Shown here piece by piece: positions 4,602 through 61,478 of a stretch of DNA of 64,000 nucleotides. Origin of the DNA: Hydrogenophaga sp. (lineage in GTDB: Bacteria > Pseudomonadota > Gammaproteobacteria > Burkholderiales > Burkholderiaceae_C); NCBI GenBank assembly GCA_018993155.1, contig JAGKSX010000083.1:1-64000 (forward strand). Reading direction: 5' to 3'. Below the pieces are notes generated by a model, which did not search any database, was not told the origin of the DNA, and was given only the letters and a program-made list of their open reading frames with translations. The position numbers and the translations under genes are program-made. Each line of letters begins with the position of its first letter. The stretch's first letter is position 1.

Positions 4602-5534
4602 GTGACCTCCCCGAACCGTTGGTGGGCCTATGCGTGCCTGGCCTTGAGCATGTCGCTGGTGGGCAGCTATGTGGCCCTCTCCAAGCCCCTGGTGCTGGTG
4701 TTCCCTGTGTTCCTGCTGGCCTGGCTGCGCTTTGGCATCGGCGGCCTGGCGATGTGGAACTGGTTGAAGAAGCCGGCCGACGAACCGCCCATGTCGCCAC
4801 GCACGCGCGGCCTGCTGTTCCTCGAATCGTTCCTGGGCAACTTCCTGTTCTCCATCTGCATGCTGTTCGGCGTGAGCCTGACCACCGCCGTGGCCGCGGG
4901 CGTGGTGATGTCGTCGATCCCGGCCGTGGTGGCCTTGTTGAGCTGGCTGTTCCTGCGCGAGCGCATCGGCTGGCGCAGCGCGGCCGGCATTGCCTGCGCG
5001 GCGCTGGGCATCGGCCTGTTCTCGCTGCAGAAGGTGGACGCCGGCGCGGCGGTGGCCGACACCAGCGGCCCGTTCGGCATCAGCAAGGCGCTGCTGGGCA
5101 ACCTGCTGGTGTTCGCCGCCGTGGTGTGCGAGGCCTCTTACGTGGTGATCGGCAAGCACCTCACCGAGGGCCTGGGCCCGAAGCGCATTTCGGCCGTCAT
5201 CAACCTCTGGGGTTTCGCGCTGGTCACGCCGTTCGGCCTGTGGGCGGCCTGGACGTTCGACTTCTCCACCGTCGCCCTGCCCGTCTGGGGCCTGCTGGTG
5301 TTCTACGCGCTGGCCGCGAGCGTGTGGACGGTGTGGCTGTGGATGACCGGGCTCAAGAAGGTGCCCGCCTCGCAGGCCGGCGTGTTCACGGTGATGCTGC
5401 CGATCAGCGCGGCGGCCATCGGCGTGCTGTTCATGGGCGAGCGGTTGACGTTGCTGCAGGGCGTGGCGTTCGGCATCGCCCTGCTCGGCCTGGTGCTGGC
5501 CACCCTGCCCGGCCGCGCGGCGCCCAAGGCCTGA
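4602..5534 (+). CDS. DMT-superfamily transporter (EamA domains)
   Basis: A 310-residue inner-membrane protein of about ten transmembrane segments made of two EamA repeats, typical of drug/metabolite exporters. No ATG opens the frame: candidates are TTG at 4515 and GTG at 4602. GTG is preferred because the first membrane helix begins about ten residues later, as in the family, and the extra 29 residues from TTG look non-conserved; neither has a strong ribosome site. The substrate is unknown. It is transcribed away from aceA from a shared 316-base spacer. Confidence 0.82.
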   Translation: MTSPNRWWAYACLALSMSLVGSYVALSKPLVLVFPVFLLAWLRFGIGGLAMWNWLKKPADEPPMSPRTRGLLFLESFLGNFLFSICMLFGVSLTTAVAAGVVMSSIPAVVALLSWLFLRERIGWRSAAGIACAALGIGLFSLQKVDAGAAVADTSGPFGISKALLGNLLVFAAVVCEASYVVIGKHLTEGLGPKRISAVINLWGFALVTPFGLWAAWTFDFSTVALPVWGLLVFYALAASVWTVWLWMTGLKKVPASQAGVFTVMLPISAAAIGVLFMGERLTLLQGVAFGIALLGLVLATLPGRAAPKA

Positions 5535-5541
5535 GCGTTTT

Positions 5542-6213
5542 TCAGAGGCACCACAGCCCGGTGGGTTGGGTGATGCCCATCCACAGCGCCCAACCCGAGG
5601 TGAGCGCCAGGGCCAGCCCGGCCAGGCGGATGCCCCAGCCACCCGAACGCGCGCCGCGCAGGCGCAGCAGCAACCACGGCCCGGCGGTGAGCGAGACCGA
5701 GGTGCCGATGGAGAACAGGGCCATGATGGCCGCGCCTTCCAGCGCGTTGGCCGACAACGAGGCCACCAGCAGCGCCGAGTACAGCAGGCCGCAGGGCATG
5801 AGCGCCCAGGCCACACCCAGCACCACCGGGGCGCGTGGCCCCAGTTTCACCATGGCGGGCCGGGCGCGGCGCCACACTTGCTGGCCGAGGTTTTCGATCC
5901 AGGCGGGCTGCCTGGCGCGCCAGAGCAGCACCGCGCCGAGCAGCAGCGCGGCCACATGGAACATGGTCCACACCGGCCGCAGCACGGCGGTGTGGGTGCC
6001 CAGCCAGGCCAGGCCCTGCACCGAGCCGGCGGCGAAGGCGCCGAACAGCGCATAGCCCAGCATGCGGCTGACCTGAAAGCCCAGCAGCGCCTGCGTGCTG
6101 CGCGCACCGGCCGCGCGGCCGATGCCGGCGCAGGCCGCGCCGCACATTGCCACACAGTGCGGGCCGCCCACCAGGCCCATGAAGAGCGCCGTGATCGCCA
6201 TGGAGGTTTGCAT
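5542..6213 (-). CDS. Sulfite exporter TauE/SafE-like (UreH/DsbD-type) membrane protein of the cbb3 neighbourhood
   Basis: The 223-residue protein has about six hydrophobic helices and the family hallmark GPHCVAMCG near the N-terminus (Cys20 and Cys24), plus a conserved PCGLLY motif in the middle (near residue 140). Proteins of this DsbD-like membrane family are often encoded beside cco genes and are suspected to act in metal or redox handling during oxidase assembly; that role is inferred. It follows hemN by 20 bases on the same strand, so it is probably the second gene of an FNR-controlled hemN operon. Confidence 0.75.
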   Translation of the reverse strand: MQTSMAITALFMGLVGGPHCVAMCGAACAGIGRAAGARSTQALLGFQVSRMLGYALFGAFAAGSVQGLAWLGTHTAVLRPVWTMFHVAALLLGAVLLWRARQPAWIENLGQQVWRRARPAMVKLGPRAPVVLGVAWALMPCGLLYSALLVASLSANALEGAAIMALFSIGTSVSLTAGPWLLLRLRGARSGGWGIRLAGLALALTSGWALWMGITQPTGLWCL

Positions 6214-6233
6214 GGTGGGCGCCCGGGCCGGCC

Positions 6234-7613
6234 TCAGATGATGCGCGAGAAGCGCGCGCGGTCGAGGTCGACCTGAAGGTTCTTGTCGAACACCATGGCA
6301 ATGGCGCGCACCAGGAACCAGCCGGCCTCAGTGACCTGGATGCCGCCGGGGTTCAGGCGCACCAGGCCCTCGGCGGCCAGGCCTTCGAGCACCTCGAGTT
6401 CGCGCGCGAAGTGGCTCTTGAAGCTGATCAGGTGCCCGAGTTCGATCGACTCGAACTGCACCTCGCCCTGGCACATCAGCGCCATGATCACCGCGCGGCG
6501 CAGCAGGTCGTCGCGCGTGAGCGCGAGCCCGCGCACGATGGGCAGCCGACCCTGGTCGAGCAGGTCGCGGTATTCCTCCAGTGTCTTGGCGTTCTGGCTG
6601 TAGGTGGCGCCGATGCGCCCGATGGCGGACACGCCGAGCGCGATCAGGTCGCAGTCGGGCTGCGTGCTGTAGCCCTGGAAGTTGCGGTGCAGGCGCCCCT
6701 GGCGCTTGGCCACCGCGAGCGCGTCGTTGGGCAGCGCGAAGTGGTCCATGCCCACGTAGACGTAGCCGGCGTCGATCAGCGCGTCGAGCGACATCGAGAG
6801 CATGCCGAGCTTGTCGCCCGCGCTGGGCAGCTCGGCCGCCGAGATGCGCCGCTGCGGCTTGAAGCGCGACGGCAGGTGGGCGTAGGCGTAGAGCGCGATG
6901 CGGTCGGGCCGCAGCTCGTTCACCTGCGCCAGCGTGCGCGCGAAGGACGCGGGGGTCTGCAGCGGCAGGCCGTAGATCAGGTCCACGTTGACCGACTCGA
7001 AGCCGATGCGCCGCGCCGCGGCCACCAGCGCGAACACCTGTTCGGCGGGCTGCACGCGGTGCACGGCCTTCTGCACGGCGGGGTCGAAGTCCTGCACGCC
7101 GAAGCTCAGGCGGTTGAAGCCCAGGCGGGCCAGGGTCTTCAGGCGGTCCTCGGTCACGGTGCGCGGGTCCACCTCCACCGAGTACTCGCCGCCGGGCGCG
7201 AGCGTGAAGTGGCGCCGCAGCATGGCCATGAGTTCTTCGAGCTCGGCATCGGAGAGAAAGGTGGGGGTGCCGCCGCCCAGGTGCAGTTGCGACACGCTGT
7301 GGCCCTGGCCCAGGTGCGCCACCTGCAGCTCCACCTCGCGCGCCAGGTAGCGCAGGTACTCGGCTGCGCGCGAATGGTGTTTGGTGATGACCTTGTTGCA
7401 GGCGCAGTAGTAGCAGACCGACTCGCAGAACGGGATGTGCACGTACAGGGACAGCGGCAGCGCCATCGAGCCCGCGCGGCGCTGCTGCAGCGCCTGGATG
7501 TAGTCGTTGTCGGTGAACGCCTCCACGAACCGGTCGGCGGTGGGGTATGAGGTGTAGCGCGGCCCCGGCACGTCAAAACGCCGCAGCAGCTCCTCGGAAA
7601 TGGCGTGGCTCAA
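6234..7613 (-). CDS. hemN: Oxygen-independent coproporphyrinogen III oxidase
   Basis: A radical-SAM enzyme that decarboxylates coproporphyrinogen III to protoporphyrinogen IX without oxygen, supplying haem when oxygen is scarce. The iron-sulfur motif CESVCYYC (C-x3-C-x2-C) and the GGGTPT SAM-binding motif are present, as is the HemN N-terminal sequence FDVPGPRYTSYPTADRF. The start is taken as TTG at 7613, with GGAG 8 bases upstream, giving 459 residues, the usual length. The longer frame to 7721 would place the FNR box (7666-7679) inside the coding region. A transcript starting about 41 bases from the box centre would begin near 7631, just before this TTG. Confidence 0.93.
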   Translation of the reverse strand: MSHAISEELLRRFDVPGPRYTSYPTADRFVEAFTDNDYIQALQQRRAGSMALPLSLYVHIPFCESVCYYCACNKVITKHHSRAAEYLRYLAREVELQVAHLGQGHSVSQLHLGGGTPTFLSDAELEELMAMLRRHFTLAPGGEYSVEVDPRTVTEDRLKTLARLGFNRLSFGVQDFDPAVQKAVHRVQPAEQVFALVAAARRIGFESVNVDLIYGLPLQTPASFARTLAQVNELRPDRIALYAYAHLPSRFKPQRRISAAELPSAGDKLGMLSMSLDALIDAGYVYVGMDHFALPNDALAVAKRQGRLHRNFQGYSTQPDCDLIALGVSAIGRIGATYSQNAKTLEEYRDLLDQGRLPIVRGLALTRDDLLRRAVIMALMCQGEVQFESIELGHLISFKSHFARELEVLEGLAAEGLVRLNPGGIQVTEAGWFLVRAIAMVFDKNLQVDLDRARFSRII

Positions 7614-53374: not shown

Positions 53375-54574
53375 ATGGCGAAGGTCAAACTCACCAAGTC
53401 CGTCGTTGACACATCGCAGGCTCAAACCTGCGACGTGGAACTCCGGGATACGCTCGTTCCGGGCTTCTTGTGCAAGATTACACCAACGGGCCGCAAGGTC
53501 TTCATGGTTCAGTACCGCACGAACTCCGGCGTGCGGCGCAAGCCGGCAATCGGCCAGTTCGGCGAACTGACGGTCGAACAGGCGCGATTGCTTGCGCAAG
53601 ACTGGCTGGCCGAAGTCCGGCGCGGGGGCGATCCCGGACTCGACAAGGCCGAATCCCGCAAGGCGCCGACGGTCAAGGAGCTGTGCGGCCGGTTCATGGA
53701 CGACCACTCCAAGCCGCACAACAAGCCCAGCACACAGGCCGGCTACCAGTACCAGATCGACAGCTTCGTCATCCCGGCCTTCGGCAGCAAGAAGGTTCAC
53801 GAGGTCACACGCCACGACATCACCGCGCTGATGAAGCGCATGGAGAAGTCGCCCACCCAGGCTAACCGGGTGCTGTCGCTCGTCCGCAAGATGTTCAACC
53901 TGGCCGAGCTGTGGGGCTACCGGCCCGATGGCTCCAACCCGTGCCGCCACGTCCCCAAGTACCCGGAAAAGGGTTCGACCCGGCTCATCACCGACGACCA
54001 GATGACCAAGCTGTTCACCTATCTGGAGAAGGCCGAGGCCGAAGGCTTGGAGCATCCCACCCACCTGCTGGCAGTCCGGCTGCAATTCGAGTTCGCCGCA
54101 CGCATGTCGGAAGTCCTGCTCTTGCAGTGGGATTGGCTCGACCTACCCAACGGCCGGGTGGTCTGGCCGGACAGCAAGACCGGCGATATGTCCAAGCCCT
54201 TGAGTGAGGAAGCCCGCCGGCGGCTGACCAATGCTCCTCGCTACGGCGATTCGCCCTATGTCTGCCCGGCGATCCTCGACCACAGCAAGCCCCTCAGCAC
54301 CCACACCTACTATCAGGCGTGGCGGCGCATCCTTGACCGTGCCGGTGTGCCGAAGGTCGGCACTCACGGTATCCGCCACCGCTCGGCGACCGACATTGCC
54401 AATTCGGGCGTTCCCCTAAAGGTCGGCATGGCGCTGACAGCGCACAAGACCGCGGCGATGTTCATGCGCTACGTCCATACCGAGGACGATCCGGTGCGGC
54501 AAGCGGCCGAACTAGTGGCGGCCCGGCGCAAGACGATCACGGGTGCGCAACGCCAGGCGGAGGTCGAAGCATGA
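53375..54574 (+). CDS. int: Tyrosine-recombinase integrase
   Basis: The 399-residue integrase has an N-terminal arm-binding domain (about residues 1-85), a core-binding domain and a catalytic domain with the full set: Arg in FAARMSEVLLLQW, Lys in DSKTGDMSKP, HGIRHR, a late His in TAHKTA and the nucleophile Tyr in FMRYVH. It is of the P4-like type. It begins about 176 bases inside the tRNA fragment and reads into the element. It probably recombines the tRNA-Leu anticodon loop. Confidence 0.95.
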   Translation: MAKVKLTKSVVDTSQAQTCDVELRDTLVPGFLCKITPTGRKVFMVQYRTNSGVRRKPAIGQFGELTVEQARLLAQDWLAEVRRGGDPGLDKAESRKAPTVKELCGRFMDDHSKPHNKPSTQAGYQYQIDSFVIPAFGSKKVHEVTRHDITALMKRMEKSPTQANRVLSLVRKMFNLAELWGYRPDGSNPCRHVPKYPEKGSTRLITDDQMTKLFTYLEKAEAEGLEHPTHLLAVRLQFEFAARMSEVLLLQWDWLDLPNGRVVWPDSKTGDMSKPLSEEARRRLTNAPRYGDSPYVCPAILDHSKPLSTHTYYQAWRRILDRAGVPKVGTHGIRHRSATDIANSGVPLKVGMALTAHKTAAMFMRYVHTEDDPVRQAAELVAARRKTITGAQRQAEVEA

Positions 54575-54675: not shown

Positions 54676-55005
54676 ATGTACCGAATCGAGCACTACCTCT
54701 CGGCCGACGTACAGAAGGATCTCTACACCGACTGGCTGCGGCGCTTGCGTGATGCACAAGCCAAGGTGGCGGTCATCCGCCGCGTGGCCCGTATCGAGCA
54801 AGGCAACTTCGGCGACCACAAGTTTTGCCGAGATGGCGTGTGGGAGCTGCGCATCGACGCGGGGCCTGGCTATCGGGTTTATTACGGCCTAGCGGGGCAA
54901 CGGTTGGTGCTGCTGCTGTGTGGTGGCGACAAGCGCACCCAGGATGCGGACATTGACCGGGCGGTGGGCTATTGGCAGGACTGGCAACGGAGAATCGACG
55001 AATGA
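54676..55005 (+). CDS. RelE/ParE-family addiction toxin (HigB-like)
   Basis: A 109-residue type II toxin with the fold pattern of addiction-module killer proteins: FGDHKFCRDGVWELRIDAGPGYRVYY and LLLCGGDKRTQDADI. In this family the toxin is a ribosome-dependent mRNA interferase or related inhibitor; the exact activity is not evident. The stop overlaps the antitoxin ATG (ATGA). Confidence 0.88.
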   Translation: MYRIEHYLSADVQKDLYTDWLRRLRDAQAKVAVIRRVARIEQGNFGDHKFCRDGVWELRIDAGPGYRVYYGLAGQRLVLLLCGGDKRTQDADIDRAVGYWQDWQRRIDE

Positions 55006-55319
55006 GAGGCAAATCCCATGACGAGGCGATGGCCGAGCTGTACCGCAACGATCCGGCGCTCGCACTTGAAGTCATCAACAACATCCTGGCCGATGGCGAC
55101 CAAGCCGAACTGATGACCGTGCTGCGCCAGCTTGCGCAGACAGTCGGCGGCGTGCAGGCGGTGGCCGAACAGGCTCACCTTAACCCGACGCAGCTTTACC
55201 GCACGTTGTCGCCGAAGGGCAATCCCGCCCTGAACAGCTTGACCGCCATCCTCAAGACGATGGGCCTACGCTTGGCTGTGCAGCCGCTGGCTTCTGCGCC
55301 CTCGGCGCACGCGGCTTGA
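55002..55319 (+). CDS. Antitoxin of the RelE/ParE-type pair
   Basis: A 105-residue protein matching the addiction-module antidote family: a helix-turn-helix of Xre/Cro type near residues 48-85 (VGGVQAVAEQAHLNPTQLYR) and an acidic N-terminus. It is coupled to the toxin by an ATGA overlap, with the toxin gene first, as in HigBA systems. It probably represses the operon through the upstream palindromes. Confidence 0.87.
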   Translation: MRGKSHDEAMAELYRNDPALALEVINNILADGDQAELMTVLRQLAQTVGGVQAVAEQAHLNPTQLYRTLSPKGNPALNSLTAILKTMGLRLAVQPLASAPSAHAA

Positions 55320-55325
55320 TGTTCG

Positions 55326-56267
55326 ATGCCTATGGCAAGCATCGTTCATCCGATTCACTTTGAAGACTACAGCGGCGTTCAATTTGAGCGCCTTGCTTTT
55401 GCTTATCACGTTCGTACCGGCTGGCGCGACCTGATCTGGCACGGCCAATCGGGTAGCGACCAGGGACGAGACATCTTCGGAATCGAGGAGTTTGACGATC
55501 GACCTTCGCGCAAGACGATTATCCAGTGCGCTAATCGTGACATGCTGACCCTGGCGAAAGCCCGAACCGATATGGAGAAGGCTGTCGAGGCTACTGGCGG
55601 TACGCCAGATGCTTTCAAATTCATCTGTCGTGGTGCAGTCTCTGACGCCAGCAGAACACGGATCAGCGATAGCGCTGCTGCACTTGGCGTAGCGCATGTG
55701 ACGATCTGGTCGAGCGTCGAGTTCGAGGAGAACCTGCGTTTGCGTGGCGAATACCTCTTGCACCGCTTCGTCCAGGGAGTCGAGTTCCCCGAAGCCGAAG
55801 CTGAGATCCGAAAATTCGTTGATGACTTCCCTGGCTTATCCGACGCCGAGGCGCTGGGTTTGATGGCTGCCGTATTCGACCGGCCTGCTTTTCGCACACC
55901 TTTTCAACAGGAAAGTTCGCTACCCGCCTTCCAGCAAGCTGTTGAGGACACCATTCGAGCACTCAACACCGGAGCGTGGAGAACACGTGAAGGCACCGAA
56001 ATTCGGCGCATTCCATCGATCCATCACATCAGAGATCAGCGTGTTCGCAAGGTGCTGGCCCAGGTTGTGCGTCAAGTCGATGAACTGCGCCGCATCTTCG
56101 TCTCTCGCCTCCGAGAAGGCGAGATCCGGCATTGTGAATGCGGCAAGGCGGACTGCCCCACCTACATGCTCAGTTCTCGTGTAGCGGACGAACTGGATTG
56201 CGCCCGTGACCGCATCCTCGCTACCTTTCGCTCGGTGCATGCACCGTTCGATGTTGTCGTCCGCTAA
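55326..56267 (+). CDS. Mrr-like restriction-endonuclease-fold protein
   Basis: A 313-residue protein that resembles PD-(D/E)xK nucleases in its first 90 residues: an early acidic residue (FEDYSGVQFERL), the loop GSDQGRDI (Asp45, Asp49) and the core strand IIQCAN (Gln67). The last catalytic lysine of the QxK motif appears to be Asn70, so activity is doubtful or uses another residue. The remaining part is helical, with a C-terminal CECGKADCP cysteine cluster. Position between the toxin-antitoxin and HEPN genes suggests a defence role. Function not established. Confidence 0.55.
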   Translation: MPMASIVHPIHFEDYSGVQFERLAFAYHVRTGWRDLIWHGQSGSDQGRDIFGIEEFDDRPSRKTIIQCANRDMLTLAKARTDMEKAVEATGGTPDAFKFICRGAVSDASRTRISDSAAALGVAHVTIWSSVEFEENLRLRGEYLLHRFVQGVEFPEAEAEIRKFVDDFPGLSDAEALGLMAAVFDRPAFRTPFQQESSLPAFQQAVEDTIRALNTGAWRTREGTEIRRIPSIHHIRDQRVRKVLAQVVRQVDELRRIFVSRLREGEIRHCECGKADCPTYMLSSRVADELDCARDRILATFRSVHAPFDVVVR

Positions 56268-56284: not shown

Positions 56285-57103
56285 ATGGCGGCGCAAATTG
56301 ACCTGTTCAGTTCTCAGCATCTTGAAGCTGCCTGCCGTGTGCTTGCAGACACCGAGCGCGGCTTGAGTGGCACACAGATTGGGAGGCTGCTGCAAGAGAT
56401 GGAAGTGATCGACCCATCGCCGGGCATGACGAAGTGGAAGCGGTTGTTCAACGCGCTCGCCGAGTTGCAGAACAAGCATCAGCGAGGCAACCATCTGATT
56501 ATGTTCATCAACCGCGCAATGAACCCGGTGAACTACGTGCGCGATCCTGGAACATTTGCTTGGCTGCGGGATGAACTCAATGTCGTGCTGGCGTTCTCTG
56601 GCTTCTATGTTCGCGACGATGGCAAGGTGGGATATGCCGACAAGGCGACGACGTTGGATGCAGCCCGCGCACGCGCTGGACGTCTCAAGGCGGCGCTGGA
56701 AAGCAGAGTCGTCCATGCGGAGGTCTTGAATTACTGCCGAGCCGAGCTGTTGGACGAGAACTATTTTCATGCGGTCTTCGAGGCGAGCAAGGGTGTCGCC
56801 GAGCGAATTCGCATACTGTCGGGGTTGACCGGCGATGGTGCCGACTTGGTGAACAAGGCGTTCGCGGGTCAGCAGCCAATCTTGGTCTTGGGACCACTGA
56901 GCACCGAGTCCGAAAAGAGCGAGCAGAGAGGATTTGCGAACTTGCTAATCGGTCTGTTCGGCGCCGTGCGCAATCCCTTGGCCCATGCCCCGAAGACGAA
57001 TTGGCCTATGTCTGAGCAGGATGCGCTCGACATCTTGACGCTGGTTTCACTGATCCATAGAAAACTGGATGGCGTGCAGAAAGCGGCAGTGTCCTTTTCG
57101 TAG
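56285..57103 (+). CDS. TIGR02391/Ymh-family HEPN-domain protein
   Basis: A 272-residue protein. The C-terminal half matches the TIGR02391 (Ymh) pattern: NYFHAVFEASKGVAERIRI near 159, then a late R229-N-P-L-A-H234, the Rx4H signature of HEPN ribonucleases. It starts 17 bases after the Mrr-like gene, so they are probably co-transcribed. Proteins with this domain occur in defence islands, often as toxins; the RNA target is unknown. Confidence 0.7.
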   Translation: MAAQIDLFSSQHLEAACRVLADTERGLSGTQIGRLLQEMEVIDPSPGMTKWKRLFNALAELQNKHQRGNHLIMFINRAMNPVNYVRDPGTFAWLRDELNVVLAFSGFYVRDDGKVGYADKATTLDAARARAGRLKAALESRVVHAEVLNYCRAELLDENYFHAVFEASKGVAERIRILSGLTGDGADLVNKAFAGQQPILVLGPLSTESEKSEQRGFANLLIGLFGAVRNPLAHAPKTNWPMSEQDALDILTLVSLIHRKLDGVQKAAVSFS

Positions 57104-57222: not shown

Positions 57223-59862
57223 ATGTCGCAAGCGGCGTTCAATGTCTTCGATGCGCTGTCCGCTTGGGGCAAGACGCTTTCCAACTGGCAGCGGTGCCTG
57301 CTGGTCAAACTCGTTGGCGCCGTCGATTTCCCGGACGAGGCTTTGGATGAGGTCTACCGCGAGTACTTGATGGACCAGCAACTGGCCACCACGGAGATGC
57401 CACGCGCCACATGGGACATCGCCTTGCCCCAGATCCAAGGCGGCCCCACAACGGACTCAAGCGTAGTGACCGCCATGACCGCACTGACCGGCGTCAACGC
57501 CCTGGCGCCGGGTGAAACACTGACTTTCGGGCGCAAGCTCACTGTGATCTATGGTCCCAACGGTGCGGGCAAGTCCGGCTATGCGCGAGTGCTCAAAGCC
57601 GCATGCTTCACCCGTTCCAAGCAAACCGCGATTCTCGGCGATGTGAAGTTGGCCAAGCACAAACAACCCACGCCTAGCGCGACGTTTGCCTTCGACGACG
57701 GCTCCAACACGACATTTGTCTACAAGGAGCCTTGCCAGCGACTGCGCGACAACTTCGCGGTGTTCGACTCGACCTGCGTGCGTGTCCATCTGGATGAGCG
57801 CAATGCCTTCCAAGTCATGCCTTATCTGTTCGATGTTTTTCCCCGCATGGTGGAGGTCTTCGGAAAGCTCCAGCGCAAGCTGCGCGATGACATCGCTCTA
57901 CGTTCCCACGCTACGGACAAGTTCGCGATTCCAGGCAGCACGTCCGAAGTCGCTTCGCTGCTGATCACCCTGACGGCACAGACGGACCTCGTTGGCTTGC
58001 AGGCATTGGCCGCCTTCGGCGACGAGGAGCGCGCGCGCCTGGAATCGGTTGTCCAGCAACTCGCGACACTCAGGACCACCGATCCCAAGGAGATCATTCG
58101 CCAGAATGAGCAGCGCATCATCGATCTGGACGCACTGAAAGCATCGATCTCAGGTTTGCACATGGCTGTATCGCCTGCAGTCGCGGAACAGATCACCAAT
58201 GCCGTCAAGCAGATTCAGACGCTGACGGAAAAGGCGTCAGCGCTCTCAGCGGCACAGTTGGGCGAGGAGCCGGTGCAGCCCATCGGCACAGCAGCATGGC
58301 GTGACCTGCTGGCTGCGGCCATTGCTTACAACGCCGAAGCCTATCCTGACGAGGCGTTTCCACCGAAGGCGGATGCGGCCCGATGCGTGCTTTGCCATCA
58401 GGTTCTCGACGAAGACGGCATTGCACGATTGACCCGCTTCTATCAGTTCGCAACCAGTGGTGTCGAAGCGCAGCTTGGCCAGGCCAAGACAACGCTCGCA
58501 GGGTATGGCACGAAGTTGTCGAAGATCAGTCTCGCCTTCTTCGACGAGGGCAGTGTCGCGCGCCGGACCTTGACCGAGGTGGATGCCGCAATGGCCGCGG
58601 CGGTTTCCAGTCATGTCGAAGGCTATCGGGAAGTCATCGGAGCATTGGCGCGGGCGGTTGCCGGTGCCTTCGACCCTGGCTTGAGCATGTTGGACCATGA
58701 CCCGGTCTCGGTACGCATCACGGAGTTGGTTGAGCGCCTGAAATCCGACAACGATGCCTTGCGACAGAAGGACCCCAAGGTACTGATGGGGTCGTTGATG
58801 GCAGAGGAGCGATTGTTACTCGATCGCCAGGTGCTCTCCGGCCAGTACGATGCCATCGCTGCGGCGGTGGCAGACCTCAAATGGGTGGTGAAGGCCAATT
58901 CGTGCATCCGCGGCTTTGCCGTATCCCAACGCGAAGTGACCAGCAAGCAGAAAGCGCTGGCCACAGAACTGGTGGCGCAGGGCTTCATCGCGCGATTCAC
59001 GGAGAACTGCGCCGCCCTGCAGCTCAAGCTGCCGGTGCAATTCCGCTTCGCGGGCGATGCTGGAACGACTGATCGCAAAATCGAGATTGCCAACGCCAGC
59101 GTGGCCGGCATCGACCCGTCTTCGGTGCTGAGCGAGGGCGAACAGACCGCCGCGGCATTGGCCGACTTTCTCACTGAAGTGGAACTCAACGGTTCCTGTT
59201 TGGGCGTGGTGTTCGATGACCCCGTGACCTCGATGGACCATGTACGCAAAGAGGCGATCGCACAACGCCTGGTGGACGAAGCCGCCAAGCGGCAGGTGAT
59301 CGTCTTTACGCACGACATCCTGTTTACGAACTATCTGGCGACGGCTGCGGTGGAAAAGGGTGTCGATTTCGCGGGCCGGACCGTGTGGCGTGGCGAGGCC
59401 GAAGAGCCAGGTGTCATCGACAGCCTGGCCTTCCCTCACGAACATTACGAAGGTGCTGCACACGATCGCGCACGAAAGCACCTTGACGTCGCCCGCACGC
59501 TGGATGGCGACAAGCAGCGCGACAGCCTGGAGAAGGCGTGTGGCAGCCTGCGTACCGCCTATGAGGACTTCATTCAGCGAAAGCTGTTCGGCAATGTCGT
59601 GCGCCGCTGGCGGGAGAACATCACCTTCACCCTCAGTCAGGTGTATTTTGATGAAGGCATTGCTGCACAGGTTCACACGCGCATGGTGATGTTATCCCGA
59701 TACATCGATGCTCACTCCCACTCGCCAGACTTCCACGAAGTGCCGTTGACGATTGATTTCGTGGTTGACGAATTGGCACAGATGGACCGCATCAAGGCTG
59801 AGTACAACACAGCGCGCAAGGCATGGGAGAAAGCCAAGCCCCAGGCGGCGACCTTTAGCTGA
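57223..59862 (+). CDS. RloC/PrrC-like ATPase with zinc-hook motif and candidate anticodon-nuclease domain
   Basis: An 879-residue SMC/Rad50-like ABC-type ATPase of the AAA_13 kind. Walker A GPNGAGKS (111-118), an internal coiled-coil region with a CVLC motif (Cys388/Cys391) like the zinc hook of Rad50/RloC, the signature LSEGE (636-640), Walker B VVFDD (Asp665/Asp666) and the H-loop VFTHD (His697) are all present. The C-terminal 180 residues hold R777-x3-E781 and later histidines (His818, His831), a layout like the R-x3-E...H triad of PrrC/RloC tRNA anticodon nucleases. The domain could alternatively be another HEPN-like effector. The gene ends 11 bases before the PIN-like gene. Confidence 0.7.
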   Translation: MSQAAFNVFDALSAWGKTLSNWQRCLLVKLVGAVDFPDEALDEVYREYLMDQQLATTEMPRATWDIALPQIQGGPTTDSSVVTAMTALTGVNALAPGETLTFGRKLTVIYGPNGAGKSGYARVLKAACFTRSKQTAILGDVKLAKHKQPTPSATFAFDDGSNTTFVYKEPCQRLRDNFAVFDSTCVRVHLDERNAFQVMPYLFDVFPRMVEVFGKLQRKLRDDIALRSHATDKFAIPGSTSEVASLLITLTAQTDLVGLQALAAFGDEERARLESVVQQLATLRTTDPKEIIRQNEQRIIDLDALKASISGLHMAVSPAVAEQITNAVKQIQTLTEKASALSAAQLGEEPVQPIGTAAWRDLLAAAIAYNAEAYPDEAFPPKADAARCVLCHQVLDEDGIARLTRFYQFATSGVEAQLGQAKTTLAGYGTKLSKISLAFFDEGSVARRTLTEVDAAMAAAVSSHVEGYREVIGALARAVAGAFDPGLSMLDHDPVSVRITELVERLKSDNDALRQKDPKVLMGSLMAEERLLLDRQVLSGQYDAIAAAVADLKWVVKANSCIRGFAVSQREVTSKQKALATELVAQGFIARFTENCAALQLKLPVQFRFAGDAGTTDRKIEIANASVAGIDPSSVLSEGEQTAAALADFLTEVELNGSCLGVVFDDPVTSMDHVRKEAIAQRLVDEAAKRQVIVFTHDILFTNYLATAAVEKGVDFAGRTVWRGEAEEPGVIDSLAFPHEHYEGAAHDRARKHLDVARTLDGDKQRDSLEKACGSLRTAYEDFIQRKLFGNVVRRWRENITFTLSQVYFDEGIAAQVHTRMVMLSRYIDAHSHSPDFHEVPLTIDFVVDELAQMDRIKAEYNTARKAWEKAKPQAATFS

Positions 59863-59873
59863 TCCGGACTTCA

Positions 59874-60692
59874 ATGGCAAAGCCCACGATTGTTCTCGAC
59901 AAGAACTACCTGCAAGGATCGACGGCGGCGCACATGCTGCAACTCGCGCAGTCGCACCAGTTGCTGATGGCCGACGTACTTTTCTACGAGTTGATCTCGT
60001 CGTCCGAACCGGGACGCTCGCGCTGCTTCGCCAAGTTTCCCAAGATCGAGAACCCGGTGATCTTGGTCAATCACGTAGGGGCGCTGCTGAAACAGGAGAT
60101 AGAGTCGCACGAAGCCTGCGGCAAGCCCTCTACGCGGTACGAGGATATCCGCTTCCAATTCAACGAGGCGCTGACCGGCGCGAACTACGCGCTGCCGCCT
60201 TCGGCGGCTGAGGCGCTTCAGGAGCAGACGGCGGAACTTCGTGAAGATGTCGAACGATTTCTTGACCGGGTGCGCTTGATTCCGACCCTAATCCCAAATC
60301 TTCTGGAAGGCACCAGCGCGGAGCGACAGTCACTGCGGGAGGCCGCCGAGGAGGTCATCGCGACCAATACCGATGCAATGTTGAAGTTCTACGGGAGCCT
60401 GGAAGTCCCTTCGGGCGAACTTCCACTACCGCCTGCCACGATCATGACCCGGGATTGGGCACTATTTCGTTGGCAGCAGGTCCAGTTGCTTTTCGCGCTG
60501 GACGCATATTGTCGTTATGGTGGACGTGTTCCCGACACACTGAGCGGAAAAGCCTACGAGAAAATCGAGCACGATGTTCTCGACGCGCACTACCTCCTGT
60601 TGGGAACACTGGAAGGATCGTTCGCCACGCGAGAAAAGAAACTGCAGCGGTGGTTTGGTCTGCTTTGTCCCGACGGCCAGCTCTATTCCTAG
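59874..60692 (+). CDS. PIN-like nuclease-fold protein paired with the RloC-like ATPase
   Basis: A 272-residue protein. The N-terminus IVLDKNYLQGS (Asp9), followed by DVLFYEL (Asp34, Glu39), and a late DVLDAHYLLLG (Asp234, Asp237) give the spaced acidic residues of PIN-domain RNases, although the long middle part (about 100-200) is not typical. The order of the genes and the 11-base spacing imply co-expression with the ATPase, and a common complex is plausible. The family has not been recognised and the catalytic activity is inferred. Confidence 0.5.
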   Translation: MAKPTIVLDKNYLQGSTAAHMLQLAQSHQLLMADVLFYELISSSEPGRSRCFAKFPKIENPVILVNHVGALLKQEIESHEACGKPSTRYEDIRFQFNEALTGANYALPPSAAEALQEQTAELREDVERFLDRVRLIPTLIPNLLEGTSAERQSLREAAEEVIATNTDAMLKFYGSLEVPSGELPLPPATIMTRDWALFRWQQVQLLFALDAYCRYGGRVPDTLSGKAYEKIEHDVLDAHYLLLGTLEGSFATREKKLQRWFGLLCPDGQLYS

Positions 60693-60717: not shown

Positions 60718-61194
60718 TCAGATCGTCGGGTAGACCACCTTCTCGTTGTGATCGCTGAAATCGTCGCTCCACGTCAGCTTGATGGAGTGCTTGCTTTTGC
60801 TACCCAGTGATATGGACGCAATCAATTCCACCGACTGGAGCGTGTCCAGTGTCTCTAGCGGAAATTTCGAGTCGATGTCCGATTGAACCAGGCAGTCGTT
60901 GCCATCGGGAAACGACAGCGACACGTTGCGCGCGGCCGATTTCCCCTTGTTCCAGATTTTCAGCCGTCGGTTGTTGCTGCCGATCTTGATGAACGTCGCG
61001 CCGAGGTCCGCTTTCTTAATGTTGAGGATTTCAGTGGCTTCTTTTTCCAGAAGTAGCTTGTTCAGTCGATCCTGGCTCTCAATCAACTTGTTCTGTTTCT
61101 GATTGAATCTGAACGTCGTCCAAGTGGCGTACGCGGACAGCAAAAGAGCGCCTATGGCGATGGCATCACCAACACTGATTGGGAAGGGCATCAT
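60718..61194 (-). CDS. Membrane-anchored protein of the zinc-ribbon pair
   Basis: A 158-residue protein with one N-terminal membrane helix (about residues 9-26), a charged coiled-coil segment (about 30-58) and a beta-rich domain at the end (KIWNKGKSAARNVSLSFP onward). No known catalytic motif is seen. The ATG overlaps the stop codon of the zinc-ribbon gene upstream (ATGA). It is convergent with the PIN-like gene, 25 bases apart. Function unknown. Confidence 0.6.
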   Translation of the reverse strand: MMPFPISVGDAIAIGALLLSAYATWTTFRFNQKQNKLIESQDRLNKLLLEKEATEILNIKKADLGATFIKIGSNNRRLKIWNKGKSAARNVSLSFPDGNDCLVQSDIDSKFPLETLDTLQSVELIASISLGSKSKHSIKLTWSDDFSDHNEKVVYPTI

Positions 61195-61478
61195 CGGATC
61201 TTGATGTTCTTGCTGCCGCGGAATGCCCTCTTCAGCGATTCGTGCAGTTCCTTCTGAAGATCTTTGACGACGGCTTTCCCGATCTCCTTGGCATGCGCTT
61301 GCACGTTCTCATCGTTGGCTCGGATGAGATCATCCTTGGAAATCTGCAACCCACAGTTGCCGCAGGTGAACAGTTCGCTCGTCTGCCCATCAGCGCCGTC
61401 GTGTGAAAACTCAGTGCCACCGCACGTTGGGCAATTCAGACAGACCGACCGGTTGTACTTGTCCGCTTTGAACGTCAT
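61191..61478 (-). CDS. Zinc-ribbon protein of the membrane pair
   Basis: A 95-residue protein with a zinc ribbon near the N-terminus: CPTCGG and CGNCGL (two CxxC pairs about 20 residues apart), then a charged helical C-terminus (residues 55-90). GGAG precedes its ATG. It is probably an RNA-, DNA- or protein-binding adaptor, co-translated with the membrane protein. Function unknown. Confidence 0.6.
   Translation of the reverse strand: MTFKADKYNRSVCLNCPTCGGTEFSHDGADGQTSELFTCGNCGLQISKDDLIRANDENVQAHAKEIGKAVVKDLQKELHESLKRAFRGSKNIKIR

Follow-up and report, generated by a model that had tools for sequence, protein, structure and literature searches.

The described systems closest to the locus considered here are the RloC proteins, in which ABC-ATPase motifs are combined with a CxxC zinc hook, set in a coiled-coil insert, and with an Arg-x3-Glu-x36-52-His triad in the C-terminal part (PMC2610378). 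According to the same source, mutation of any triad residue of the Geobacillus RloC leads to loss of anticodon-nuclease activity, and RloC excises the wobble base. Activation of RloC by DNA-break inducers was reported in other bacteria (PMC3874168), and a published comparison assigned RloC, PrrC and the Ymh family to the HEPN superfamily (PMC3710099). In the window, i.e. the whole stretch of 64,000 nucleotides from Hydrogenophaga sp. contig JAGKSX010000083.1 that was analysed, the gene of an RloC-type ABC ATPase is followed by the gene of a PIN-fold protein. These are the two open reading frames (ORFs) that a preliminary description of this DNA had pointed out, on the same strand and 11 bases apart. 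The locus differs from RloC in this downstream gene, and its tRNA cleavage is predicted. We favour the reading that the two genes form one transcription unit, in which an RloC-type tRNase is accompanied by an accessory PIN protein, a predicted RNase in its own right that probably works alone (rough probability of 0.55).

Judged by its sequence, the window's ATPase is an RloC by the published definition, as the preliminary description had supposed. It matches Pfam AAA_13 (PF13166, E 7.2e-15), and its top PADLOC family is PDC-S06 (E 4.4e-120), which, going by PADLOC naming, we take to be a single-gene candidate; here a second gene adjoins. The motifs that had been named earlier (Walker A, CVLC, LSEGE, DD and R777-x3-E781) stand where they had been placed, and most are invariant in two alignments: A2, with 40 sequences (39 relatives and the window's), and A3, with 27, in which the window's sequence is joined by 26 of 20-79% identity. 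The relatives listed were the best 120 of 1205. The ‘later histidines’ of that description come down to H831, with a Glu-His spacing of x49 that lies inside the published x36-52 range. Overall, the likeness to RloC covers the ABC-ATPase motifs, the CxxC zinc hook, the triad and a linchpin-type histidine (PMC2610378), the last of these in T696-H697 downstream of Walker B, which is invariant in 27/27 sequences. R795 is likewise invariant in alignment A3 (27/27), and the arginine of an Rx4-6H motif in the C-terminal region is kept in the close clade only (A2 and A3). Because the triad is intact and invariant in all 27 sequences, the earlier suggestion that the PIN protein substitutes for a diverged nuclease domain of the ATPase had to be given up. 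The structure model of the ATPase, with a predicted template-modelling score of 0.42, is too poor for placing a HEPN fold; at this low confidence it shows long helices on both sides of the zinc hook, and its Foldseek matches are Rad50/SMC-like. Searches with the ATPase against phages at the protein level and against E. coli at the DNA level gave no match.

In the case of the second protein, the acidic residues D9, E39, D234 and D237, which had been called PIN-like, are real and near-invariant in 121 sequences, these being the window's and the best 120 of 192 relatives found. Alignment A1 holds 43 of the 120 listed relatives and the window's sequence, and nine PIN proteins were taken from fetched loci, that of L050 being the same as P0095. 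A structure check was also run: the model reaches a predicted local distance difference test score of 95, has PIN-domain structures among its VIA-align neighbours, VapC included, and contains a long helical insert. By predicted fold and PIN-type acidic residues, the protein is a member of the PIN-domain superfamily, as had been claimed. Foldseek with this model gave nothing at E<=0.001 in PDB and BFVD, no family matched the protein at E<=0.1 in Pfam, NCBIfam, PADLOC or PHROGs, and 44 family members compared with Pfam at E<=1 hit just seven stray families, one member each. The protein had no match in phages and plasmids, nor did a prophage relative used as query. The family (192 relatives found) is apparently unnamed, having no model in the four libraries searched.

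As HARP (minimal protein-only RNase P) and VapC enzymes have a similar set of acidic residues, we infer by analogy that the PIN protein is a metal-dependent RNase. It differs from HARP in length, with 272 amino acids as compared to a 173-residue HARP chain (PMC8266387), and in E39, which is near-invariant in the window's family; the structural Z is modest, and the family gave no sequence-profile match to solved HARPs. With VapC and other PIN toxins it shares the PIN fold and the acidic active site, but it is larger and has a long helical insert. One could think of a VapC-type toxin or regulator that is held in check by the ATPase, following toxin-antitoxin logic, as VapC structures are among the VIA-align matches and HARPs are described as evolutionarily linked to toxin-antitoxin systems (PMC8266387). 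However, no small neighbour recurs across the different contexts of PIN relatives (BLASTP at E<=1e-3, which short or diverged antitoxins could escape), the sole non-ATPase neighbour common to different contexts being a large gene about 2 kilobases (kb) away (L052 and L053), and an ATPase neighbour is missing from the 12 other PIN loci. Therefore no shared antitoxin is visible, and we consider such a toxin very improbable.

PARIS (AriA/AriB) was considered as another known system in which an ABC ATPase lies beside a separate RNase gene. AriA chains weakly match the profile of the window's ATPase, in the ATPase region only (E 3.9e-6). Unlike this locus, PARIS has in AriB a Toprim nuclease, as its source describes it (PMC12409363), whereas the partner found here is PIN-type by residues and predicted fold and was matched by no family; moreover, the window's ATPase has a nuclease motif of its own. 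PARIS was thus ruled out.

All intact ATPase-PIN pairs that were found lie on a single mobile island. Scanning genome contigs for the PIN gene gave 11 relatives among 26 matching stretches, with a single sequence as query, which reaches close relatives only. In 9/11 of these loci (L001-L009) the ATPase lies directly upstream in an intact pair; L001 and L003 are assemblies of one strain, and L002, L005, L007 and L008 are contigs of metagenome-assembled genomes (MAGs). The six genes from the toxin to the PIN gene are kept in 9/9 paired loci and the integrase in 8/9, L007 beginning after the integrase. The hosts comprise Comamonadaceae relatives, a Lysobacterales MAG, a Rhizobiaceae MAG and a Stutzerimonas. 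L001 and L006 show zero codon differences from the window over seven genes, save for two L006 genes with one N each, and L001 and L004 are identical to the window's contig for 8690 bases from position 60000, reaching the ends of those loci. The variants L007-L009 (Lysobacterales, Rhizobiaceae and Stutzerimonas) have 92-94.5% identity to the window over the main blocks.

In these island variants the spacing between ATPase and PIN genes stays at 10-11 bases, although the spacer upstream of the ATPase gene differs by about 410 bases. Between the window and L007-L009, the ratio of nonsynonymous to synonymous divergence (dN/dS) comes to about 0.15 in the ATPase gene and to 0.11-0.13 in the PIN gene, and the pair is still together at a dS of about 0.12-0.27. 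Therefore, both genes are maintained by purifying selection. Because of the 11-base spacing on one strand, joint expression of the two genes is likely. The finding of this ATPase and this PIN protein goes beyond chance, given the E-values to PF13166 and PDC-S06 and the low dN/dS.

The close spacing, its constancy in the variants, the selection on both genes and their co-transfer would also fit a system with two effectors, in which infection would be sensed by the RloC ATPase, which would then govern its own anticodon nuclease as well as a bound PIN protein as second effector. The order of the pair recurs, moreover, in a Caballeronia sordidicola locus outside the island (L010), where the ATPase is 72% and the PIN protein 71% identical, the latter over its better piece, beside an AbiEii-type gene. 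However, this pair, the sole one found off the island, is cut short to either side of one junction, consistent with a single deletion. The ATPase furthermore retains its own triad and therefore does not need a second nuclease, and, as described below, the partner is absent from other loci of either gene. For a bound second effector these points leave a possible but doubtful case. As to L010, the AbiEii-type gene (5481-6500) stands directly before the truncated pair.

An ATPase match was found in 0/12 of the other PIN loci at E<=1, and a PIN gene in 0/25 of the other ATPase loci, with nothing better than E 0.34. Thus the defined two-gene system across genomes that had been expected earlier did not stand up in this neighbourhood check, and a conserved system was rejected, as in the loci and genomes sampled co-occurrence was found nowhere besides the island and the decayed Caballeronia pair. 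These counts are to be read with their composition. The 12 PIN loci are not 12 lineages, as five are related prophages, four of which have just 1.1 kb upstream, occupied by the integrase; L051, with almost nothing upstream, and L064 are two contig ends from the same genome; and L011 is a fragment that groups with the RloC-linked PIN genes in the tree described below. Among the 25 ATPase loci only L070 (66%) exceeds about 30% identity, and L063 and L085 hold little or nothing past the end of the ATPase gene. The counts also leave out the nearest non-island ATPases, P0122 (79%) and P0123 (78%), and the PIN proteins P0002-P0005. Wider regions were compared for 9/17 other ATPase genomes of the class sample, with G400 and G585 of the family sample left out.

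Similar sparseness could be detected in the genome samples, in which at most two ATPase candidates were scored per genome for the class and the family. In the class sample the PIN gene occurs in 3/369 genomes, one of them (G150) with a broken copy, and the ATPase in 18/369 at E<=0.001, a cut-off that admits weak matches; both genes are present in the window's own genome alone. In the family sample the PIN gene occurs in 7/399 and the ATPase in 6/399 genomes at E<=1e-60, and all four genomes with both carry an identical ATPase-PIN stretch. The phylum sample has the PIN gene in 1/299, which is the window itself, and among 142 relatives of G156 it was found in G156 only. Regarding plasmids, where ATPase context comes from 1/187 records, a Yersinia ruckeri plasmid carries an ATPase of 66.6% identity after a resolvase gene and has no PIN gene.

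Five related prophage contigs (L071-L075) place the PIN ORF directly after a tyrosine-integrase gene, with a gap of 0 bases by mechanical ORF calling and start codons as called; a second viral scan returned the same five contigs. The slot after the prophage integrase is likely a cargo site for lysogen-encoded defence. This position in 5/5 of the prophage loci, together with the toxin-antitoxin pair, the PD-Lambda-3_B gene and the nuclease-like gene gathered on the island, would agree with simple cargo, i.e. two unrelated defence or stress genes that adjoin by chance in a crowded accessory region behind an integrase and are not functionally linked. The 11-base spacing on one strand, which suggests joint expression, and the persistence of the intact pair through the dS given above argue against chance adjacency, and we regard it as unlikely.

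The PIN tree groups the window, L008 and L010, the three tips with a known ATPase link, in one clade of 9, which has a support of 0.967 and is nested in the family. This clade also takes in P0001-P0005, whose context is undocumented, and L011, a Herminiimonas fragment with 2.9 kb of upstream sequence that contain no ATPase. It is simplest to assume that an autonomous PIN gene was recruited to an RloC gene once.

For the favoured reading, a transcription unit of RloC-type tRNase and accessory PIN protein, the first steps would follow published RloC work. The ATPase head with its zinc hook would sense double-strand DNA breaks from phage infection, whereupon the R-E-H nuclease would be released and cut tRNA anticodons, disabling translation and blocking the phage. 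The PIN protein, presumably recruited beside RloC once, would supply a second RNase output; the other RloCs examined appear to do without it, as it seems to do without RloC in other hosts examined. As the pairing appears recent, the two proteins likely fight phages side by side and not as a fixed machine.

A more speculative idea is a double cut, in which RloC would open the anticodon loop and a HARP-like PIN protein would cut the same tRNAs at the 5'/acceptor side. Its sole hints are the likeness to HARP and the wobble-base excision described for RloC (PMC2610378), and we hold it to be improbable. If true, phage kinase and ligase could not mend such tRNAs, and a DNA-break sensor and a relative of protein-only RNase P would together serve specifically to counter tRNA repair.

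No description of an RloC-PIN pair was found among the listed titles and abstract starts of open-licence PMC papers; a 2020 classification of conflict-system ABC ATPases possibly mentions one. With this locus, the candidate anti-phage repertoire gains a PIN-fold family that is apparently unnamed, and a member of this family joins an RloC-type gene on an island spread over several bacterial orders. If the two proteins cooperate, the pair would offer a natural test of a tRNA cut twice as bacterial reply to phage tRNA repair. If they do not, it warns that genes lying close together on a defence island are not necessarily one system.

Table 1. Positions in the window of the ATPase and PIN genes, their motifs and the neighbouring island genes
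Feature	Position	Strand	Evidence or conservation
ABC ATPase of RloC type, 879 aa (amino acids), ATG start; predicted anticodon-nuclease region at the C-terminus	57223..59862	+	PF13166, PDC-S06, motifs
Walker A GPNGAGKS, residues 111-118 including K117	57553..57576	+	G111, N113, G116, K117 invariant 27/27
Zinc-hook CVLC, residues 388-391	58384..58395	+	C388, C391 invariant 27/27
ABC signature LSEGE, residues 636-640	59128..59142	+	S637, E638, E640 invariant; L636, G639 nearly (27 sequences)
Walker B end DD, residues 665-666	59215..59220	+	D665, D666 invariant 27/27
R777-x3-E781, first part of RloC/PrrC anticodon-nuclease triad	59551..59565	+	invariant 27/27
H831, third triad residue (E781-x49-H831)	59713..59715	+	invariant 27/27
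PIN-fold protein, apparently unnamed family, predicted RNase, 272 aa, ATG start	59874..60692	+	
PIN acidic residue D9	59898..59900	+	D in 113/113 having the column (8 gaps among 121); 9/9 from loci
PIN acidic residue E39	59988..59990	+	121/121; 9/9 from loci
PIN acidic residues D234-x2-D237	60573..60584	+	120/121 each; 9/9 from loci
Fourth PIN acidic position E254, after T252	60633..60635	+	E 119/121, D 1/121; loci: E 8/9, D 1/9
Tyrosine integrase of the mobile island, neighbour	53375..54574	+	PF00589 E 4.9e-19; other genera carry a near-identical island
HI1419/HI1420-type toxin-antitoxin pair, neighbour	54676..55319 (54676-55005, 54972-55319)	+	TIGR02683 E 1.6e-36; PF21716 E 1.2e-10; TIGR02684 E 7.1e-11, below its cut-off
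Weakly Mrr-type restriction-nuclease-like protein, neighbour	55326..56267	+	PF04471 E 0.021, below cut-off; PDC-M58A E 1.7e-5
PD-Lambda-3_B / Hypoth_Ymh protein, neighbour, outside the pair	56285..57103	+	PADLOC E 7.6e-172; PF09509 E 9.7e-45

Regarding the neighbours, the segment 53145-53175 beside the integrase, when read on the minus strand, resembles a tRNA or tmRNA 3' end and is a probable attachment site. A tRNA search for the attachment site found no complete tRNA, and a search for direct repeats of the island gave weak families only. The PD-Lambda-3_B homologue has an RNPLAH motif that, as read here, fits HEPN Rx4H, and relatives of its gene with 75.5% nucleotide identity are found on Klebsiella, Raoultella and Enterobacter plasmids. 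Its upstream neighbour had no match to the PADLOC model of PD-Lambda-3_A. PD-lambda-3 has been used as a control for abortive infection, as one source describes (PMC13190303). In L007, L008 and L009 the extra bases relative to the window, about 410, lie between the Ymh and ATPase genes, and in L008 they contain a 73-codon ORF. On the other side of the pair, two small genes on the minus strand (60718-61478) face the PIN gene; one is a relative of PHROG 6723 of unknown function (E 8.6e-48), and the other encodes an ECs_2282-type zinc-binding protein (E 5.6e-15).

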